This document shows positions 31,934 to 39,562 of a DNA stretch of 64,000 nt, piece after piece. Position 1 is the first letter of the stretch. Each line of letters opens with the position of its first letter. The position numbers were made by a program, and so were the translations under genes. The notes under the pieces are model-generated. The model had not been told where the DNA came from. It searched no databases and saw nothing but the letters and a program-made list of their open reading frames with translations. Source of the DNA: Halomonas denitrificans (GTDB lineage: Bacteria; Pseudomonadota; Gammaproteobacteria; Xanthomonadales; Wenzhouxiangellaceae); NCBI GenBank assembly GCA_019800895.1, contig JAHVKF010000001.1, positions 744,001 through 808,000 of the forward strand. The letters are read 5' to 3'.

Positions 31934-32368
31934 CCATCGCGGGGCTTCACCCTGCTCCGGAGTGACTGGCCGGAGCCCCGGCATCGCGAGCGTCCCCTCG
32001 GTGCGAGCAGCGCAGAGCGGAGGTTGCGTGCAGGCGGCGGCACCGCGCGCGTCGTGCTCGCCGACTCCGGGCCGTTCGACGGCCGAGATCGGAGCACCGT
32101 GATCGCCCCGTCGATGGGGCAGCCCGGCGACGAGAAGGCGCCGGCGATGCTCCTTCGGGCGAGCGCTCGCACGGTCGGTTCGAACCCTGACCTCGACGGG
32201 GGATCGTCGGCGGTTCGACCCGATCGTACGGCCCCTCCTGCGCGCGATCTTGCGGGCATCGGACGACAGGATTCGCTAGACTACGCCACAGTTGGTCGGG
32301 CGACATCGCATTCTGCGACCGTCGGAAACCGACCCTGGTCTTCGACACGAAAGGGAGCATCTCTGAAC
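31934..32368. other. 435-base non-coding stretch between MerC and an exported protein gene
   Basis: No reading frame here looks like a protein in codon use or similarity. A TAGACT hexamer at 32277-32282 could be the -10 of the downstream gene, but no good -35 is present at 16-18 bases. An AGGGAG ribosome site for the downstream gene lies at about 32352-32357. I see no repeat or hairpin that explains the length. Confidence 0.4.
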
Positions 32369-33109
32369 ATGAACGTCTTCGAAATTTCCGGTCGATTCAC
32401 GACCGCACTCGTCGCTCTGGGCCTCACCGCCGGGCTTGCCCATGCCCAGGTCACCGGCGAAGGAAGCCCGGAACCGCGTGGCGGCGTCCCCGCCACGGAC
32501 ATCACCTTCGAGCCGATCGATGCGCCGCACGCGGTCTGCCCGCCGTTCGGCGCGTGCCCGCCGGCCGACCAGGTCACCGACGAATACCTCGGCTTCGGGG
32601 TCGACTTCACGCCGTTCGGGGGCAACCCGCCGGTCGGGGTCTTCAACGACCCGCCGGAGAAGTTCGGTGGCGTCAACGCTGCCGGTGATCTCGACCTGGT
32701 GACCGACACCTGTGGACAGATCGTCGTTCCCGGAACCACCAATCCTGGCCGGACGGATGTGATCGGCGTCGCGGCCGGTGGTGTCGGCGGGCCGAGCGAC
32801 ATCCTGCTCGAAGCCTTCGACGCCGGCGGCGCCCTGGTGGGGTCGAGCATCGCCGACGACGGTGCCGATGGCGACGGCGACATCATCGCCGTCGTATCCG
32901 ATCCGAACGGGGCGATCGCCAGCTTCTGCGTATCGACCCCGACCGGCGATACGCACGGAGTGCATTTCATCTACCTGAACACGCCGGAAGCCGGCCTGCC
33001 GCAGACGACGGAAGTGCCGTCGCTGTCCGCGCTCGGTCTCGGCGTGCTGGCCCTGCTGCTCGCCGCGGCCGGGCTCTTCGGCGTCCGCCGCTTCGGAAAG
33101 CCGTCCTGA
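32369..33109 (+). CDS. Exported protein with IPTL-CTERM-like C-terminal sorting tail
   Basis: The 246-residue protein has a signal peptide ending at AHA-QV, a beta-rich body with two cysteine-flanked loops (CPPFGACPP; TDTCGQIVV), and a C-terminal tripartite tail: VPSLSALGLG, a hydrophobic helix, and RRFGKPS. This is the layout of IPTL/PEP-CTERM proteins that are processed or anchored at the cell surface. I do not recognise the body; its length and Ca-like acidic loops (DDGADGDGD) suggest an extracellular domain. A terminator follows. A second tail-bearing protein is at 38789-39562. Confidence 0.75.
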   Translation: MNVFEISGRFTTALVALGLTAGLAHAQVTGEGSPEPRGGVPATDITFEPIDAPHAVCPPFGACPPADQVTDEYLGFGVDFTPFGGNPPVGVFNDPPEKFGGVNAAGDLDLVTDTCGQIVVPGTTNPGRTDVIGVAAGGVGGPSDILLEAFDAGGALVGSSIADDGADGDGDIIAVVSDPNGAIASFCVSTPTGDTHGVHFIYLNTPEAGLPQTTEVPSLSALGLGVLALLLAAAGLFGVRRFGKPS

Positions 33110-34110: not shown

Positions 34111-34845
34111 TCACGTCATTCGGGTCGCGGCGAGCGCCAGGCCCAGCAGCACCAGGTCGGGCTGCCGGTCGTCGGGGTCCAGCGCGGATTGTACCGTCGA
34201 GGCCCCGCCGCCGGTCAGCACGAACACCGGTGAACAGCCCAGCGTCCTGCCCGCCCGCTCGATACCGAGTCGGATCGCCCCGGCCTGCTGCAGGACCAGT
34301 CCGCGCTCCAGCGCCTGGGCCGTATCGAGCGCCGGCGCCAGCGGCAGATCGGCCGCTTCGCGCGCCCGCTCCAGCCCCGGCGCCCGGGCCAGCAGGCCGG
34401 ACCGCGCCGCGTCCGGTCCGGGCAGGATCCAGCCGCCGCGGTGGATTCCGGAGGAATCGACCACGTCCAGCGTCGTCGCGGTACCGATGTCGACGACCAC
34501 GAGGGCCTGCCCGTGCATCTGCCAGGCAGCATTCACGGCCAACCAGCGATCGGTGCCCAGGGACGCGTAGGCCGGCGCAACGGGCAGATCGACGTCGCCG
34601 AGACCGACCGGGGTCCACCGGATCGAATGGCTTTGCAGGACGGCGACCAGCTCGCCTTTGGCCGCGTCGCCGCGCACGTCCGTCAGGAGCACGCGACTGC
34701 CCGGATGCGCCTCGGCCCAGCGATCGAACGCGTCGATCGATTCGGCCACGGTCCTGCCGAGACCTCCGGCGCCATCCAGCTGCGCGCGCTTGAGCCGGGT
34801 ATGCCCGACCTCGACCAGCCAGGGCTCGGGGTTACTCGCGGCCAC
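34111..34845 (-). CDS. coaX: Type III pantothenate kinase, divergent
   Basis: CoaX phosphorylates pantothenate, the first step to coenzyme A. The 244-residue product has VVVDIGTATTLDVV (phosphate-2 motif), GGWILPGP, and LTGGGASTV of the ASKHA kinases. The N-terminal phosphate-1 motif, normally D-x-G-N-[TS], reads EVGHT here, so Asp becomes Glu and Asn becomes His. The start is GTG 34845, which overlaps the 3' end of birA by 14 bases; no ATG fits. Context (birA before, SPOR after) supports coaX. Activity may be altered. Confidence 0.88.
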   Translation of the reverse strand: MAASNPEPWLVEVGHTRLKRAQLDGAGGLGRTVAESIDAFDRWAEAHPGSRVLLTDVRGDAAKGELVAVLQSHSIRWTPVGLGDVDLPVAPAYASLGTDRWLAVNAAWQMHGQALVVVDIGTATTLDVVDSSGIHRGGWILPGPDAARSGLLARAPGLERAREAADLPLAPALDTAQALERGLVLQQAGAIRLGIERAGRTLGCSPVFVLTGGGASTVQSALDPDDRQPDLVLLGLALAATRMT

Positions 34846-35821
34846 GCAGGCTGACCTCCCCGGCGCTGAATTCCAGCCGCTGCGCATCGTTGCCGGCGCG
34901 GACCCAGAGTCCGCCGCGCTCGCTGATTCCGTCGACGATGCCGTCGATCGAAGTGCCGTCGCCGCGCTCGACCCGGACCGCCCTGCCCCGCAGCACGTCG
35001 AGCTCGCTCCATTCGGACTCCATCGCCCCGAAGCCCTCGGCCTGCAGGCGCGCGCAGGCCGCATCCAGCGACTCGATCAGAGCGGACGCGATCCGGTTCC
35101 GCCGATCCGGTCCCGGGCCGATCGCGCACAGGTCGATCCACGGCTGGTCGATGGTCCGCGCCGCGACGGGCGGCATCCAGACGTTGACGCCGATCCCGAC
35201 GACCACGTCGCAGGGGCCGTCGACGACGCCGTGCAGTTCGACCAGCAGGCCGCCGAGCTTGCGGCCGTCGGCGACCAGGTCATTGGGCCACTTCAGGCCG
35301 ATGCCCTCGGCGCCGAGCCCGGCCAGTGCCCGGGCGGCCGCGACGCCGGCGACCAGGCTCAATGCGCCGAGGCGCGGAAGACCGACGTCGAAGCGATACC
35401 CGAAGCTCAGCGCGATCGACGTTCCCGGCGGCGCGGTCCACGTACGCCCCCGGCGGCCGCGTCCGGCCTGCTGCCACTCGGCCAGCACCGCCCGCCGGTG
35501 AGCGAAGCCTTCGCCGGCGAGTTCTGCATTCGTGGAGTCGCAGCGCCCGAGCACGCGGATATCGATGGCGGAATCGACGGCCGAATCGATGGACGAGTCC
35601 AGCTGGCTGCGGATCGTCCGTGCATCCAGGCGTTCGATGCGCCGCCCGAGCCGGTAGCCGCGCTGGGTGTCGGACTCGATCGGCAGGCCGGCCTCGCGCA
35701 GCGCCTCGACCTGTTTCCAGACCGCGGTCCGGCTGACGCCGAGGGCCGCCGACAGCGACGGACCGGCATGCCAGTCGGCGTCGCCGAGTCGTTCGAGGAG
35801 GTCCAGTGCGGTGTCGGTCAT
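34832..35821 (-). CDS. birA: Biotin-protein ligase and biotin operon repressor BirA
   Basis: The product (329 residues) has an N-terminal winged helix (SLSAALGVSRTAVWKQVEALREAGLPIESDTQRGYRL), a catalytic ligase core with the biotin loop QQAGRGRRGRTW and KWPNDL, and a C-terminal SH3-like domain. The DNA-binding domain means it can act as both enzyme and repressor. ATG 35821 gives the usual N-terminus. ATG 35869 overlaps the plsY stop as ATGA and would add 16 residues; it cannot be ruled out. Confidence 0.94.
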   Translation of the reverse strand: MTDTALDLLERLGDADWHAGPSLSAALGVSRTAVWKQVEALREAGLPIESDTQRGYRLGRRIERLDARTIRSQLDSSIDSAVDSAIDIRVLGRCDSTNAELAGEGFAHRRAVLAEWQQAGRGRRGRTWTAPPGTSIALSFGYRFDVGLPRLGALSLVAGVAAARALAGLGAEGIGLKWPNDLVADGRKLGGLLVELHGVVDGPCDVVVGIGVNVWMPPVAARTIDQPWIDLCAIGPGPDRRNRIASALIESLDAACARLQAEGFGAMESEWSELDVLRGRAVRVERGDGTSIDGIVDGISERGGLWVRAGNDAQRLEFSAGEVSLRGRE

Positions 35822-35865
35822 CGGGGGCGGGTACGGCGCGGTGGGTCGGTCGGCGAGCCGGCGGT

Positions 35866-36534
35866 TCATTTCCTGCGCTTGAGGACGCGGGCTTTCTCGA
35901 AGCGATTCTCGGTGCCGCTGACCAGCCGCAGGAGGTTGCTGCGATGGGTGAACACCAGCAGCACCGCGAGCGCGACGGAAAGCACGCCGAGCACCGTCGG
36001 CAGCGGATCGGGACCGGCCAGGTACATGGAGGGCACCAGGCTCAACCCGGCCAGGATGGTCGCGAGGCCGACATAGCCGGTGCCGATCAGCGTGACCAGC
36101 CAGACCACCAGCAGCGGCAGCACGCACCACGGTGCGAGCACGAGCACCGCGCCCACCGCCGTTCCGGCCCCCTTGCCGCCGCGGAAGCCGAAGTACACCG
36201 GCCAGACGTGACCCAGCACCGCCGAGAACCCGCAGACGCAGGCCAGCACCAGCGGATCCGGTGGCGCCGTGCCGAACAGCGAGGCGACGGTCGGGGCGAG
36301 CAGCGGCAGGGGCCACGCTGCCAACACGCCCTTGCCCAGGTCGATCAGCACCACGCCCAGCGCGAACGCCCAGCCGACCGTGCGCAGGGCGTTGGTACCG
36401 CCCGCGTTGCCCGAGCCCATGGTTCGGATATCGACATCCCGGAGGCGGCCGAGCACGAGCGAACCCGAGATCGATCCGATCAGGTAGGCGGCCAGGGCGA
36501 ACAGCGCGATCTGCAGGTCGACGAGGTCAGGCAT
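35866..36534 (-). CDS. plsY: Glycerol-3-phosphate acyltransferase PlsY
   Basis: PlsY moves an acyl group from acyl-phosphate to glycerol-3-phosphate to make lysophosphatidate in the inner membrane. The 222-residue protein has five to six membrane helices and the three family motifs: GSGNAGGTNALR, GHVWPVYFGFRGGKGAGT, and a third near THRSNLLRL. The next gene upstream encodes a fatty acid kinase fusion that could make its acyl-phosphate donor. It is followed by birA. Confidence 0.95.
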   Translation of the reverse strand: MPDLVDLQIALFALAAYLIGSISGSLVLGRLRDVDIRTMGSGNAGGTNALRTVGWAFALGVVLIDLGKGVLAAWPLPLLAPTVASLFGTAPPDPLVLACVCGFSAVLGHVWPVYFGFRGGKGAGTAVGAVLVLAPWCVLPLLVVWLVTLIGTGYVGLATILAGLSLVPSMYLAGPDPLPTVLGVLSVALAVLLVFTHRSNLLRLVSGTENRFEKARVLKRRK

Positions 36535-36612
36535 GGGGGTCGCGCATCCGAATCAGGTCCGTCAATGTGGTGTTTCGCAATCTGCTCCGCGCCGCCCCGC
36601 CATTCGCTGGAA

Positions 36613-38436
36613 TCAGCCCGGGGCGCTCCAGGGCTGCAGGCCGACGATCAGGCTTCCGGGGCCGGCGTGGACGCCGACCGCGGGACTGGCCTCCTCGATC
36701 CAGCAGGCGTCGACCTCGGGATGCGCGGTCAGCAGCAGTTCGCGCAGCAGCCGGGCATCGTCGCGACAGTCGGCCTGACTGATCAGGATGCGGTACACGG
36801 TACCGGAATCCATCTTCCTCGCGAGAAATTTCGCGAAGCGCCGGACCGCCGGCTCGCCGCGGCCGCGCACGATGCCGCGCGCCGCCAGCAGCCCATCCGT
36901 CGTATTGGCCAGCACCGGGTTCAGCCGCAGGTTGCGCGCCAGCCAGTCCATCCAGGGCTTCACCCGGCCGCCTCGCACGCCCCAGGACAGGTCGCGGGCC
37001 AGGGCGAAGGTGCGGGTCTTCGGGCCGATCTCGTCGAGCCCCGAGACGATCTCGCGCCGGCTCCAGCCGGCCGCCGCCGCCTCCGCCGCCCACAGCACCA
37101 GCAGCGCCTGGCCGCAGGCCGCGTTCTTCGAGTCGTGGACCGTGATCGGCGCATCGTCGCCGAGCCGCTTCGCGGTCTGCTCGGCCGCCTGCCAGGTGCC
37201 GCTGAGCTGGCCCGAGACATGGATCGAGACCACCTCGTGCCCGTGACTCGTCAGGAGTTCGAACTGGCGCCGGAAATCGCGCGGCGGCGGCTGCGAGGTC
37301 TGGGGGTGGACCTCGCCCTTCTCCACCTTCGCGTAGAACGCGCCGGGCTGGATCGACAGCTTGTCGAGGTACTCCGTGTCTCCGAAGAACAGGCGAAGGG
37401 GAACCGTATGGATGCCGAGCCGATCGATCTCACCCGCCGGCAGGTCGGCCGCCGAGTCGGTGACCACGGCAATCGTGCCGCGCTGGTTGAGCAGGCCGTG
37501 CTGCCGGCTCATGTCATCGGCCTTCTGCTGGCGGATATCGCCGAACTCGGCGCACACCCGGAACACTTCGCCGGGCTTGTTGGTATGGATGTGGACCCGG
37601 GCGCGGCGACCGCCGCCGGCGACGACCAGGCTGCTGGCGTCCAGCGCGTTCAGGCGTTCGCGCAGGGTGCCCACTTGGACATCGTCGCCGTCGATCAGGC
37701 ACTCGGTGCAATAGCGATGATCCAGCGGGCCGGCCTCGTGCCCTCCTGCCGTTCCTTCCGCGTCGGCTTCGAAAGCCGGGAGCGCCTCGGCGTCGGGGAC
37801 GCGACCGCTTCGCACGTAGCGCCAGATGCCGTCGATCAGATCGACGAAGCCCTGGGCCCCGGCGTCGACCACACCGGCGTCCTTGAGCACCTGAAGCTGG
37901 TCCGGCGTGGCCTTCAGCGAACGATGCGCCGCCTTGCGGGCTCGCCCCAGCAGGTCCCGGATGTCCTCGATCCCCGATTCAACGCCCTGTGCCAGCGCAT
38001 CGCCGAAATCCTCCAGCACGGTCGGCATGGTGCCGGCGACCGGTTTCGACATCGCGGACCACGCCGATACCGCGCCGGCCTTGACCGCGTGCGCGAGCTG
38101 GTGGGCATCGAAGCGGTGATTGGTCCGGCTGCTTTCGCTGACGCCGTGGAAGAACTGGGCAAGAATCGCCCCGGAATTACCGCGCGCCCCGTCCAGGGCC
38201 GCGTCGGCGACGTCGTCGAGCAACATCGGCACCGTGGCTCGACGGCCTTCGGCCAGTCGCCTGCGCACGCTCTGGAGCGTGAACAGAAGGTTCGTACCGG
38301 TGTCCCCGTCGGGCACCGGAAACACGTTGATCCGATTGAGCAGATCGCGCCGGGCCTGGACGTGGGCGATGCCGGCCATCAGTGCGTTGCGCAGGTGCTC
38401 GGCATCGATGTGCAGAAGCGTGGAGTTCGAGCTCAT
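36613..38436 (-). CDS. Single-chain fatty acid kinase: DAK2 (FakA-N), FakA middle domain and DegV (FakB) fused
   Basis: The 607-residue protein joins two parts that are separate in Firmicutes. Residues ~10-210 are a DAK2/DhaL-like nucleotide-binding domain with DGDTGTNL (43-50), GARGNSG (83-89) and DAGAQGFVDL (191-200). Residues ~240-315 match the FakA middle domain (RYCTECLIDG; HIHTNKPG). Residues ~322-605 are a complete DegV/FakB domain with TDSAADLP (326-333), TSQP (380-383) and SGQLSGTWQ (408-416), which bind the fatty acid carboxylate. FakA-FakB makes acyl-phosphate from free fatty acid. The usual FakA C-terminal domain seems replaced by FakB itself. The gene is 78 bases upstream of plsY on the same strand, which uses acyl-phosphate. 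Confidence 0.88.
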   Translation of the reverse strand: MSSNSTLLHIDAEHLRNALMAGIAHVQARRDLLNRINVFPVPDGDTGTNLLFTLQSVRRRLAEGRRATVPMLLDDVADAALDGARGNSGAILAQFFHGVSESSRTNHRFDAHQLAHAVKAGAVSAWSAMSKPVAGTMPTVLEDFGDALAQGVESGIEDIRDLLGRARKAAHRSLKATPDQLQVLKDAGVVDAGAQGFVDLIDGIWRYVRSGRVPDAEALPAFEADAEGTAGGHEAGPLDHRYCTECLIDGDDVQVGTLRERLNALDASSLVVAGGGRRARVHIHTNKPGEVFRVCAEFGDIRQQKADDMSRQHGLLNQRGTIAVVTDSAADLPAGEIDRLGIHTVPLRLFFGDTEYLDKLSIQPGAFYAKVEKGEVHPQTSQPPPRDFRRQFELLTSHGHEVVSIHVSGQLSGTWQAAEQTAKRLGDDAPITVHDSKNAACGQALLVLWAAEAAAAGWSRREIVSGLDEIGPKTRTFALARDLSWGVRGGRVKPWMDWLARNLRLNPVLANTTDGLLAARGIVRGRGEPAVRRFAKFLARKMDSGTVYRILISQADCRDDARLLRELLLTAHPEVDACWIEEASPAVGVHAGPGSLIVGLQPWSAPG

Positions 38437-38514
38437 GTCCCCTTGTCGATCGTCGGTGTCGCGTGGAGCCGGGCCGCCGGACTCGAGCCGAGGGCGACCG
38501 GCGGCCGACCCGGG

Positions 38515-38751
38515 TCAGTCGGTCGAGCCGGCGAGCTCGCGGACCTGGGATGCGGTGAACGGCCAGGTGATCTTCTCTCCGGTGTCTTCGTTCAGGATCA
38601 CCGGCACCTGGTCGCCGTAGCGCTGGATCAGGTCGAGGTCGGCGTCGATATCGACCTGGGTGACCCGGTCCGAGAGGCCGGCCAGGTTGATCAGGGCATG
38701 CGCCTTTTCGCACAGTTCGCAGGACTCACGGGTGTAGAAGACCAGGGTCAT
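38515..38751 (-). CDS. Glutaredoxin family protein
   Basis: The 78-residue protein has a thioredoxin-like fold with CELC (the CxxC redox site) in MTLVFYTRESCELCEKAH and the cis-Pro in DQVPVILNED. It belongs to the small YruB/DUF836-like glutaredoxin group. ATG 38751 is preferred over an upstream TTG because it sits directly at the first beta strand. The target is unknown. It lies 78 bases before the FakA-FakB fusion on the same strand. Confidence 0.88.
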   Translation of the reverse strand: MTLVFYTRESCELCEKAHALINLAGLSDRVTQVDIDADLDLIQRYGDQVPVILNEDTGEKITWPFTASQVRELAGSTD

Positions 38752-38788
38752 TGGCGAAGTTCCGCTCGGCAAAACGGCAAGTATTCCA

Positions 38789-39562
38789 CTAGCTGCCGCG
38801 CGCGTCCAGCCGACGACGGGCAGCGAGCCCCAGCAGCAGGACCACGGCGGCCAGCGCCAACAGGCCCGCGACCCCGAGCGCGGGAACGGTCGCCGCCGAA
38901 CCGGCCAGCACCTCGACGGTCGCCCGGAGCATGAAGTCCTGGCGCGTGGGGATCATGAATGCCACGCCTCGATCGGCGATCCAGCTGCGCCCCGCGGGCT
39001 TCAGCGACTGGTCCGACTCGACATTGAAGTCTTCGCCCGCATGACGCGGATCGCCCTGGACCATGATCCAGAACACCGGGTCGTCGACGATCCACGGCGA
39101 CTCGAAGGTGATTTCGACCTGCCCTGTGCCGTCGCCGGTGATCACGGTCGCGTTGCGCTGGGGATCGCCCAGATCGGGTTCGCCGTCAATGTCCCGATAG
39201 ACGTAGACCTCGTTGGGCCAGGGCCCGCCGACCGCGCTGAAATCCAGCGAATTGGAGATGCAGAAGCCGGTCAGCAGCACCCGTCCGGCTTCGAGATCGA
39301 AGTCGTCGAGCTCGAAGCGCACGCCGAGAAAATGATCCGGTTCACCGGCCTGTCCGCCGCCGAAGAAGATGCTGGTCTCCGCCACGCCGTCGTCGTAGGC
39401 CAGGTCGCCGCAGTCGAAGGCCGCGGCACCCCGTGCCGGCGTTCCGGCGCGCGCCTCGGCGGTCGTTGGAGCGGCCGGGGTCGCCGGCGCACCTGGCTGC
39501 AACTGGGCGCACGCGCCCCCGGCAGACCCGAGCAGAAGGAGCATGAGCAGGAATCGGTGCAT
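38789..39562 (-). CDS. Exported protein with C-terminal hydrophobic/Arg sorting tail
   Basis: The 257-residue protein has a signal peptide with a possible lipobox-like end (MLLLLGSAGGACAQ), an Ala/Pro/Thr-rich linker, and a beta-sandwich-like body that I do not recognise (FDCGDLAYDDGVAETSIFFGGG... GFCISN...). The tail VPALGVAGLLALAAVVLLLGLAARRRLD matches the tripartite plan of surface-sorted proteins, as in the gene at 32369. The CAQ could be a lipidation site or a normal cleavage site. The start ATG 39562 has no clear ribosome site; ATG 39544 is possible. Confidence 0.65.
   Translation of the reverse strand: MHRFLLMLLLLGSAGGACAQLQPGAPATPAAPTTAEARAGTPARGAAAFDCGDLAYDDGVAETSIFFGGGQAGEPDHFLGVRFELDDFDLEAGRVLLTGFCISNSLDFSAVGGPWPNEVYVYRDIDGEPDLGDPQRNATVITGDGTGQVEITFESPWIVDDPVFWIMVQGDPRHAGEDFNVESDQSLKPAGRSWIADRGVAFMIPTRQDFMLRATVEVLAGSAATVPALGVAGLLALAAVVLLLGLAARRRLDARGS

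Follow-up and report, generated by a model that had tools for sequence, protein, structure and literature searches.

Fatty acid kinase (Fak) is described as a Gram-positive strategy, its typical FakAB systems as consisting of one FakA and several FakBs, and the FakB of Firmicutes as exchanging acyl-phosphate with the bilayer (available text of PMC10146087). In S. aureus, FakA_C binds FakB and FakA_L is the dimer domain (excerpts of PMC9136124). Gram-negative bacteria are described as using FadL/FadD with PlsB, E. coli PlsY as dependent on PlsX-made acyl-phosphate alone, and the Xanthomonadales as the only bacteria known to keep solely PlsB/PlsC (excerpts of PMC11633183). The window analysed here, a stretch of DNA of 64,000 nucleotides from a gammaproteobacterium, contains a gene in which the kinase and fatty-acid-binding components of Fak, which returns fatty acids to the membrane lipids of Gram-positive bacteria, are joined in one chain beside plsY. 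Two makers of acyl-phosphate are known, PlsX, the usual one, and Fak.

Domain composition of the fused gene

The gene, referred to here as fak, is a 607-residue frame that runs from ATG to stop on the minus strand (38436..36613). The first-pass annotation had given no strand; what the plus strand reads over the same interval is a different sequence and not this gene. The chain is composed of three consecutive domains:

36613..38436, minus strand: fak, predicted fused fatty acid kinase, 607 aa (frame, Pfam, alignment, AlphaFold model)
37825..38319, minus strand: DAK2 / FakA N-terminal ATP-binding domain, residues 40-204 (Pfam Dak2, 1.6e-36)
37498..37719, minus strand: FakA middle domain, residues 240-313 (Pfam FakA-like_M, 7.9e-18)
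36643..37476, minus strand: DegV/FakB fatty-acid-binding domain, residues 321-598 (Pfam DegV, 5e-58)

The C-terminal domain is a member of the DegV family, scoring 227.2 bits with TIGR00762 (cut-off 99.7) and 197.1 with PF02645 (cut-off 27). The whole chain falls below the cut-offs of the named Fak families, with 174.4 bits against 975 for NCBIfam FakA (NF038248), 266.7 against 396.1 for YloV (TIGR03599) and 110.3 against 350 for FakB1 (NF038249). The YloV profile matches fak up to profile position 302 of 530 (fak residue 319) and the FakA profile up to position 312 of 549 (residue 314), where both matches end, and the FakB1 profile covers residues 322-601 (profile positions 3-280 of 286). FakA_C, the FakB-binding domain, is therefore missing, and its position is taken by a complete FakB, with DegV starting directly after the point where the matches stop.

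Two other assignments were considered and rejected. The C-terminal part is not FakA's own FakB-like FakA_C, as the FakA profiles stop before it, FakB1 covers it and the carboxylate residues are kept. Nor is the protein a dihydroxyacetone kinase, as it scores 28.1 bits with dak_ATP (cut-off 574.95) and 27.8 with DhaL (cut-off 138.3). The first-pass annotation had read a DAK2 domain, a FakA middle domain and a full DegV/FakB domain in one frame, with the FakB domain standing where the C-terminal docking domain of FakA would be. The 607-residue frame, the Pfam domains and the end points of the FakA profiles bear this out, and in a domain search of the kind that it had proposed, the C-terminal part scores as a true DegV. 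The three motifs it had named are also present in the translation (TDSAADLP, TSQP and SGxLSGT, the last as SGQLSGT).

A profile search of the window's own genome gives a single Dak2 match and a single DegV match, both of them fak. The nearest named relative found is from Wenzhouxiangella sp. XN79A (83%). NCBI taxonomy places Wenzhouxiangella in Chromatiales, and other matches to fak are labelled Lysobacterales, Lysobacteraceae or Xanthomonadaceae.

Conserved residues and linker

Individual positions were followed in an alignment of 41 fusions that share 30-83% identity with the window protein. All 13 residues checked for ATP binding, catalysis and the carboxylate site are identical in every one of the 41. 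The nucleotide and metal residues are N37, which sits just ahead of the DAK2 domain, D43, D45, T46, N87 and D191; they match by alignment all six Mg-ATP sites of S. aureus FakA_N (N32, D38, D40, T41, N82 and D185; excerpts of PMC9136124). In the middle domain, the invariant Cys243, His282 and His284 correspond to the FakA catalytic residues Cys240, His282 and His284 (same excerpts). A second cysteine, C246, lies three residues past Cys243 in 40 of the 41 fusions and is absent from the two canonical FakAs aligned; together with His282 and His284 it could complete a metal site.

The carboxylate site of the FakB domain comprises T380, S412, R491 and H590, each invariant. T380, S412 and H590 are presumably the Thr, Ser and His that have carboxylate roles in FakB. 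R491 was assigned from an Arg in the excerpts of PMC9136124 and placed by an alignment that assumes a tag length. The first-pass annotation had singled out these carboxylate residues as a point on which its reading could fail; none of the four sites is lost in any of the 41 fusions.

The segment that joins the two halves is nearly constant in length. The spacing between Q312 and D327 is 14-16 residues in 40 fusions and 11 in the remaining one, which holds the FakB domain at an almost unvarying distance. The FakB docking/membrane arginine is poorly kept, with Arg in 6/41 fusions at R524 and in 23/41 at the next candidate, R526, as placed by a phmmer alignment that is unsure in this stretch. We take the aligned arginine to be R202 of S. 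aureus FakB2. The missing docking partner could explain why this site is not conserved.

Stand-alone DegV proteins of the same order provide a control. The 21 examples (stretches of 301-313 residues) include 17 from genomes lacking FakA_M and 4 from fusion-bearing genomes (G322, G332, G344 and G367). In all 21, Asn replaces the FakB His and the SGT motif is missing; Thr and Ser align in 21/21 and Arg in 19/21. At the His and SGT positions the invariance of the fusions thus exceeds general DegV conservation, and the objection that these residues, being common to all DegVs, are uninformative was rejected. These stand-alone proteins (L029:1495-2436 and L142-L161), mostly from FakA_M-less genomes, form a divergent type, and the one in G025 adjoins DsbA-like and diphthamide-synthase-like genes.

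Predicted structure

The AlphaFold model of fak has a mean pLDDT of 90.8 and a pTM of 0.78. Its N-terminal part superimposes on the S. aureus FakA N-domain with Z 34.9 and an rmsd of 1.6 over 212 residues, and the N-domain also matches the DhaL fold (Z 25.7). The C-terminal part matches many DegV/FakB structures with Z of about 29-33, several of which were solved with fatty acid. The middle domain was barely covered by the structural alignment rows (VIA-align). The domains are not arranged as in the crystal structure of S. suis FakA (7w7h; TM 0.33-0.37, rmsd 25), which is unsurprising given that the third domain differs. A viral fold library gave no match at E <= 0.001.

Distribution of the fusion

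The fused form was surveyed in three draws. An even draw of 185 genomes from the class contains DegV in 19 and FakA_M in 11; FakA_M is joined to DegV by coordinates in 10 of these 11, with G102 and G126 cut by a contig end. The two are separate in the remaining one, G108, where the separate FakA gene (L079, G108:C7:14722-16491) passes the YloV cut-off (573.4 against 396.1) and may have been transferred or be contamination. What we call the order is a survey group that probably corresponds to Xanthomonadales. The 200 genomes drawn from it contain DegV in 152 and FakA_M in 97, and FakA_M is fused in frame to DegV in 95 of the 97, rather than occurring as the two separate proteins of known Fak. 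The exceptions are G316, near a contig end and with an unlisted DegV position, and G332, where the frame is broken. A draw of 398 genomes from the phylum contains FakA_M in 2, both from this order and both fused. Together these counts make the fused form the main form of Fak seen within the phylum, and its frequency in the order is a point that the first-pass annotation had missed.

Genomic context and adjacency to plsY

The genes flanking fak in the window are all on the minus strand:

35866..36534, minus strand: plsY, acyl-phosphate-using glycerol-3-phosphate acyltransferase (TIGR00023)
34832..35803, minus strand: birA-like biotin protein ligase, next conserved gene past plsY (Pfam, fetched regions)
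38515..38751, minus strand: glutaredoxin-like (DUF836) gene, upstream of fak (Pfam, fetched regions)

The plsY product scores 149.3 bits with TIGR00023, above the equivalog cut-off of 137.2. fak lies upstream of plsY, and the gap between the fak stop and the plsY start is 78 bases (36535-36612), the distance given in the first-pass annotation. A scan of 35700-39000 found no promoter-like sites, and one terminator-like site on the opposite strand, no more than in shuffles, so that the scan carries little information. Two further frames of the window, 38789-39562 (minus strand) and 32024-33109 (plus strand), encode secreted-looking proteins whose C-termini resemble, by eye, a sorting signal of a hydrophobic stretch and a basic tail; the 38789-39562 protein matches no Pfam family at E 0.1.

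Whole-protein homologues of fak are found in 35 of the 41 genomes searched, with the window's own genome counted and the matches in G007 and G020 partial. The fetched regions number 40, of which 30 come from the order and 10 from elsewhere; plsY follows fak in 28, and birA is also present in 26 of these; a glutaredoxin homologue lies upstream in 8, at 32 to 3318 nt. The PlsY search was given to 80 of the 107 FakA_M-positive genomes, 70 in the order and 10 outside. In 67 of the 80 the next gene downstream, in the same orientation, is plsY (66/70 within the order and 1/10 outside it), which answers the question, raised by the first-pass annotation, of how often the fusion sits beside plsY. Given the homologues in 35/41 genomes and the adjacency across the order, the arrangement is not due to chance. 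A further 27 positives from the order were outside the PlsY search; the locus was fetched for 10 of them, and plsY is there in all 10.

Four genomes of the order depart from this arrangement. In G007 the contig ends inside fak and PlsY was not found, and in G231 fak and plsY are on separate contigs, where plsY sits at the start of its own. The two genes are also on different contigs in G033 and G035, and the fak loci of these genomes run at least 2.5 kb beyond the gene without plsY. The broken frame of G332 (L069, G332:C9) is interrupted within the FakB portion, through assembly error or decay, and plsY still adjoins it.

Co-occurrence with PlsY, PlsX and PlsB

PlsY was tested in 70 of the 97 fusion-positive and 67 of the 103 fusion-negative genomes of the order, the latter picked from survey listings and not at random; it is present in 69/70 and 3/67, respectively. 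PlsX was detected in 93 of the 200 genomes (53/97 fusion-positive, 40/103 fusion-negative), absence here meaning absence from one Pfam search, a single method. PlsB is present in 197 of the 200. The joint counts for the 137 genomes tested for PlsY are:

fak present: PlsX and PlsY both present 30; PlsY without PlsX 39; neither 1
fak absent: PlsX and PlsY both present 2; PlsX without PlsY 11; PlsY without PlsX 1; neither 53

Thus 39 genomes carry the fusion and PlsY with no PlsX detected. PlsX-negative assemblies include several that are 99-100% complete in 1-7 contigs (rounded; G027, G029, G335, G344 and G309). The window's own genome contains PlsB, PlsX and PlsY along with the fusion, so fak is not the sole possible source of acyl-phosphate there.

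Fisher tests that ignore kinship associate fak with PlsY (p 3e-34) and also PlsX with PlsY (p 0.0008; PlsY in 32/43 PlsX-positive against 40/94 PlsX-negative genomes). Because kinship is ignored, contrasts were also made on a tree of 60 PlsB proteins, built by a quick method, with long branches for G263 and G033 and with the PlsY label of G011 taken from its fetched region; supported branches only were used. In 7 independent fak contrasts PlsY changes the same way in 6, the opposite way in 0 and ties in 1 (p 0.031). In 4 PlsX contrasts, too few for significance, PlsY on average changes the same way in 0.1, the opposite way in 1.4 and shows no difference in 2.5, which gives no hint of a link between the two. 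One clade of 41 rows is wholly without PlsX; 19 of its rows have fak and PlsY, and 22 have neither.

In the sampled relatives, then, PlsY is kept almost only where the fusion is kept, even where PlsX was not detected, and the fusion tracks PlsY more closely than PlsX does, which the first-pass annotation had missed. The comparison with PlsX is the sole point weakened by the raw association of PlsX with PlsY and by the small number of PlsX contrasts, and the 39 PlsX-less genomes suffice to carry it.

Two further patterns were seen in the order. In family f9 (e.g. G032, G239 and G263) PlsX and PlsB are present and PlsY was not detected; DegV was not detected in these three genomes either. PlsX thus stands there apart from the partner it normally has. 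In G224 (G224:C1:2288920-2289889) PlsY is present, PlsB has no match and the PlsX match is split in three, with a TAG in one of the pieces, which represent a damaged gene or sequencing errors.

Proposed function and alternatives

We consider it highly probable that fak encodes a fatty acid kinase in a single chain and that PlsY uses the acyl-phosphate it makes, in a salvage route beside PlsB. The C-terminal FakB domain would take one free fatty acid and hold its carboxylate with T380, S412, R491 and H590. The DAK2 domain would bind Mg-ATP via N37, D43, D45, T46, N87 and D191 and, with Cys243-His282-His284 of the middle domain, would phosphorylate the carboxylate. The kinase domain that receives the fatty acid from FakB most likely belongs to the same chain or, in a putative dimer, to the partner chain, the short and nearly fixed linker substituting for the FakA_C that recruits FakB in Firmicutes. 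PlsY, encoded next door, would then turn acyl-phosphate into lysophosphatidic acid, so that outside or recycled fatty acids could be salvaged in parallel with the PlsB route. A direct physical hand-over of acyl-phosphate to PlsY, as suggested in the first-pass annotation, is conceivable but unsupported.

In the PlsX-less genomes the fusion is the sole one of the two known acyl-phosphate makers found. These genomes have no known enzyme to convert acyl-ACP to acyl-phosphate, so salvage should be the only source of the fatty acids that reach PlsY there. The first-pass annotation had proposed both a tie between the fused enzyme and PlsY and a route for outside or recycled fatty acids. The adjacency, the co-occurrence and the tree contrasts support the tie, and the clearest case for the probable route comes from the 39 genomes in which PlsX was not detected. 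We lean towards a broader reading for a large part of the order, in which PlsY has been freed from PlsX and the one-chain kinase is its sole donor, forming a salvage-only acyl-phosphate branch that runs parallel to de novo synthesis by PlsB and was lost as a unit where PlsB alone was kept.

The kinase might instead make an acyl-phosphate that mainly regulates a target such as LpxC, with plsY nearby through shared ancestry. A 2026 preprint, available in excerpt, proposes acyl-phosphate as an inhibitor of E. coli LpxC (PMC13060810), the near-universal PlsB probably makes PlsY dispensable for bulk synthesis, and plsY does not adjoin fak in 9 of the 10 fak-positive genomes outside the order, some on short contigs. 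We nevertheless find this unlikely: PlsY has been lost with fak in separate lineages and kept with fak in the absence of PlsX, and G033 and G035 keep both genes although these lie on different contigs. That last observation also bears on linkage as the only cause of the co-occurrence, with fak and plsY having separate roles and being deleted together. As neighbours, adjacent in nearly all genomes of the order examined, the two could be lost jointly by single deletions, and G268 has PlsY with FakA_M and DegV not detected, presumably the tie in the tree test. PlsY lacking both PlsX and Fak would, however, have no known donor; 39 of the 40 PlsX-less, PlsY-positive genomes tested carry fak, the exception being G030, and the pattern that would, if frequent, favour linkage, PlsY without fak and PlsX, occurs in 1 genome among the 67 fak-negative ones. 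We therefore regard linkage alone as very improbable.

The substrate, finally, might be another carboxylate or lipid and not a common fatty acid. The close structural matches include many DegV/FakB entries with bound fatty acid, however, the carboxylate residues are invariant and PlsY requires acyl-phosphate, which leaves such a substrate scarcely credible beside a fatty acid kinase that feeds PlsY.

If the salvage reading is true, the current picture is incomplete, in that a fused Fak linked to PlsY occurs in roughly half of the sampled genomes of one order. The natural PlsX-less genomes would allow PlsX and PlsY to be considered apart from each other, and the reason why Gram-negative bacteria with PlsB keep PlsY would become directly testable. 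The route might also bear on escape from inhibitors of fatty acid synthesis. For in vitro lipid synthesis, which now combines FakA, FakB and PlsY as separate proteins (excerpts of PMC13400652), the fusion would supply acyl-phosphate from a single gene.

Comparison with known systems

The domains and the reaction are individually known; the apparent novelty lies in the one-chain form, its Gram-negative home and the tie to PlsY without PlsX. A 2005 paper on the EDD domain reportedly may have noted DAK2-DegV combinations. In the literature searched (titles, abstract starts and passages, with subscription papers mostly outside it) we found no report of a FakA-FakB fusion in a Gram-negative bacterium, and none of the one-chain form, the Gram-negative home or the PlsX-less tie to PlsY. 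If the order is Xanthomonadales, the 53 genomes with none of fak, PlsX and PlsY fit the statement that these bacteria keep solely PlsB/PlsC, whereas the fusion-bearing genomes do not.

The closest described systems are the FakA-FakB pairs of Firmicutes (S. aureus, B. subtilis and S. suis, 7w7h), which share the kinase domain, the Cys-His-His residues, the FakB fold and the carboxylate residues with fak. They differ in having two chains where fak has one, in possessing FakA_C, and in using several exchangeable FakBs where fak has a single fixed one in a Gram-negative host beside PlsB. The DhaK/DhaL dihydroxyacetone kinases have the DhaL fold in common with the fak N-domain, although the family scores lie far under the cut-offs. 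The C-terminal domain belongs to the DegV EDD-domain family (TIGR00762) but is joined to a kinase, and the stand-alone DegVs of the order differ from it in carrying Asn for the FakB His. PlsY of the PlsX/PlsY pathway likewise uses acyl-phosphate; here, in 39 genomes, PlsY is paired with the fusion where PlsX is undetected.
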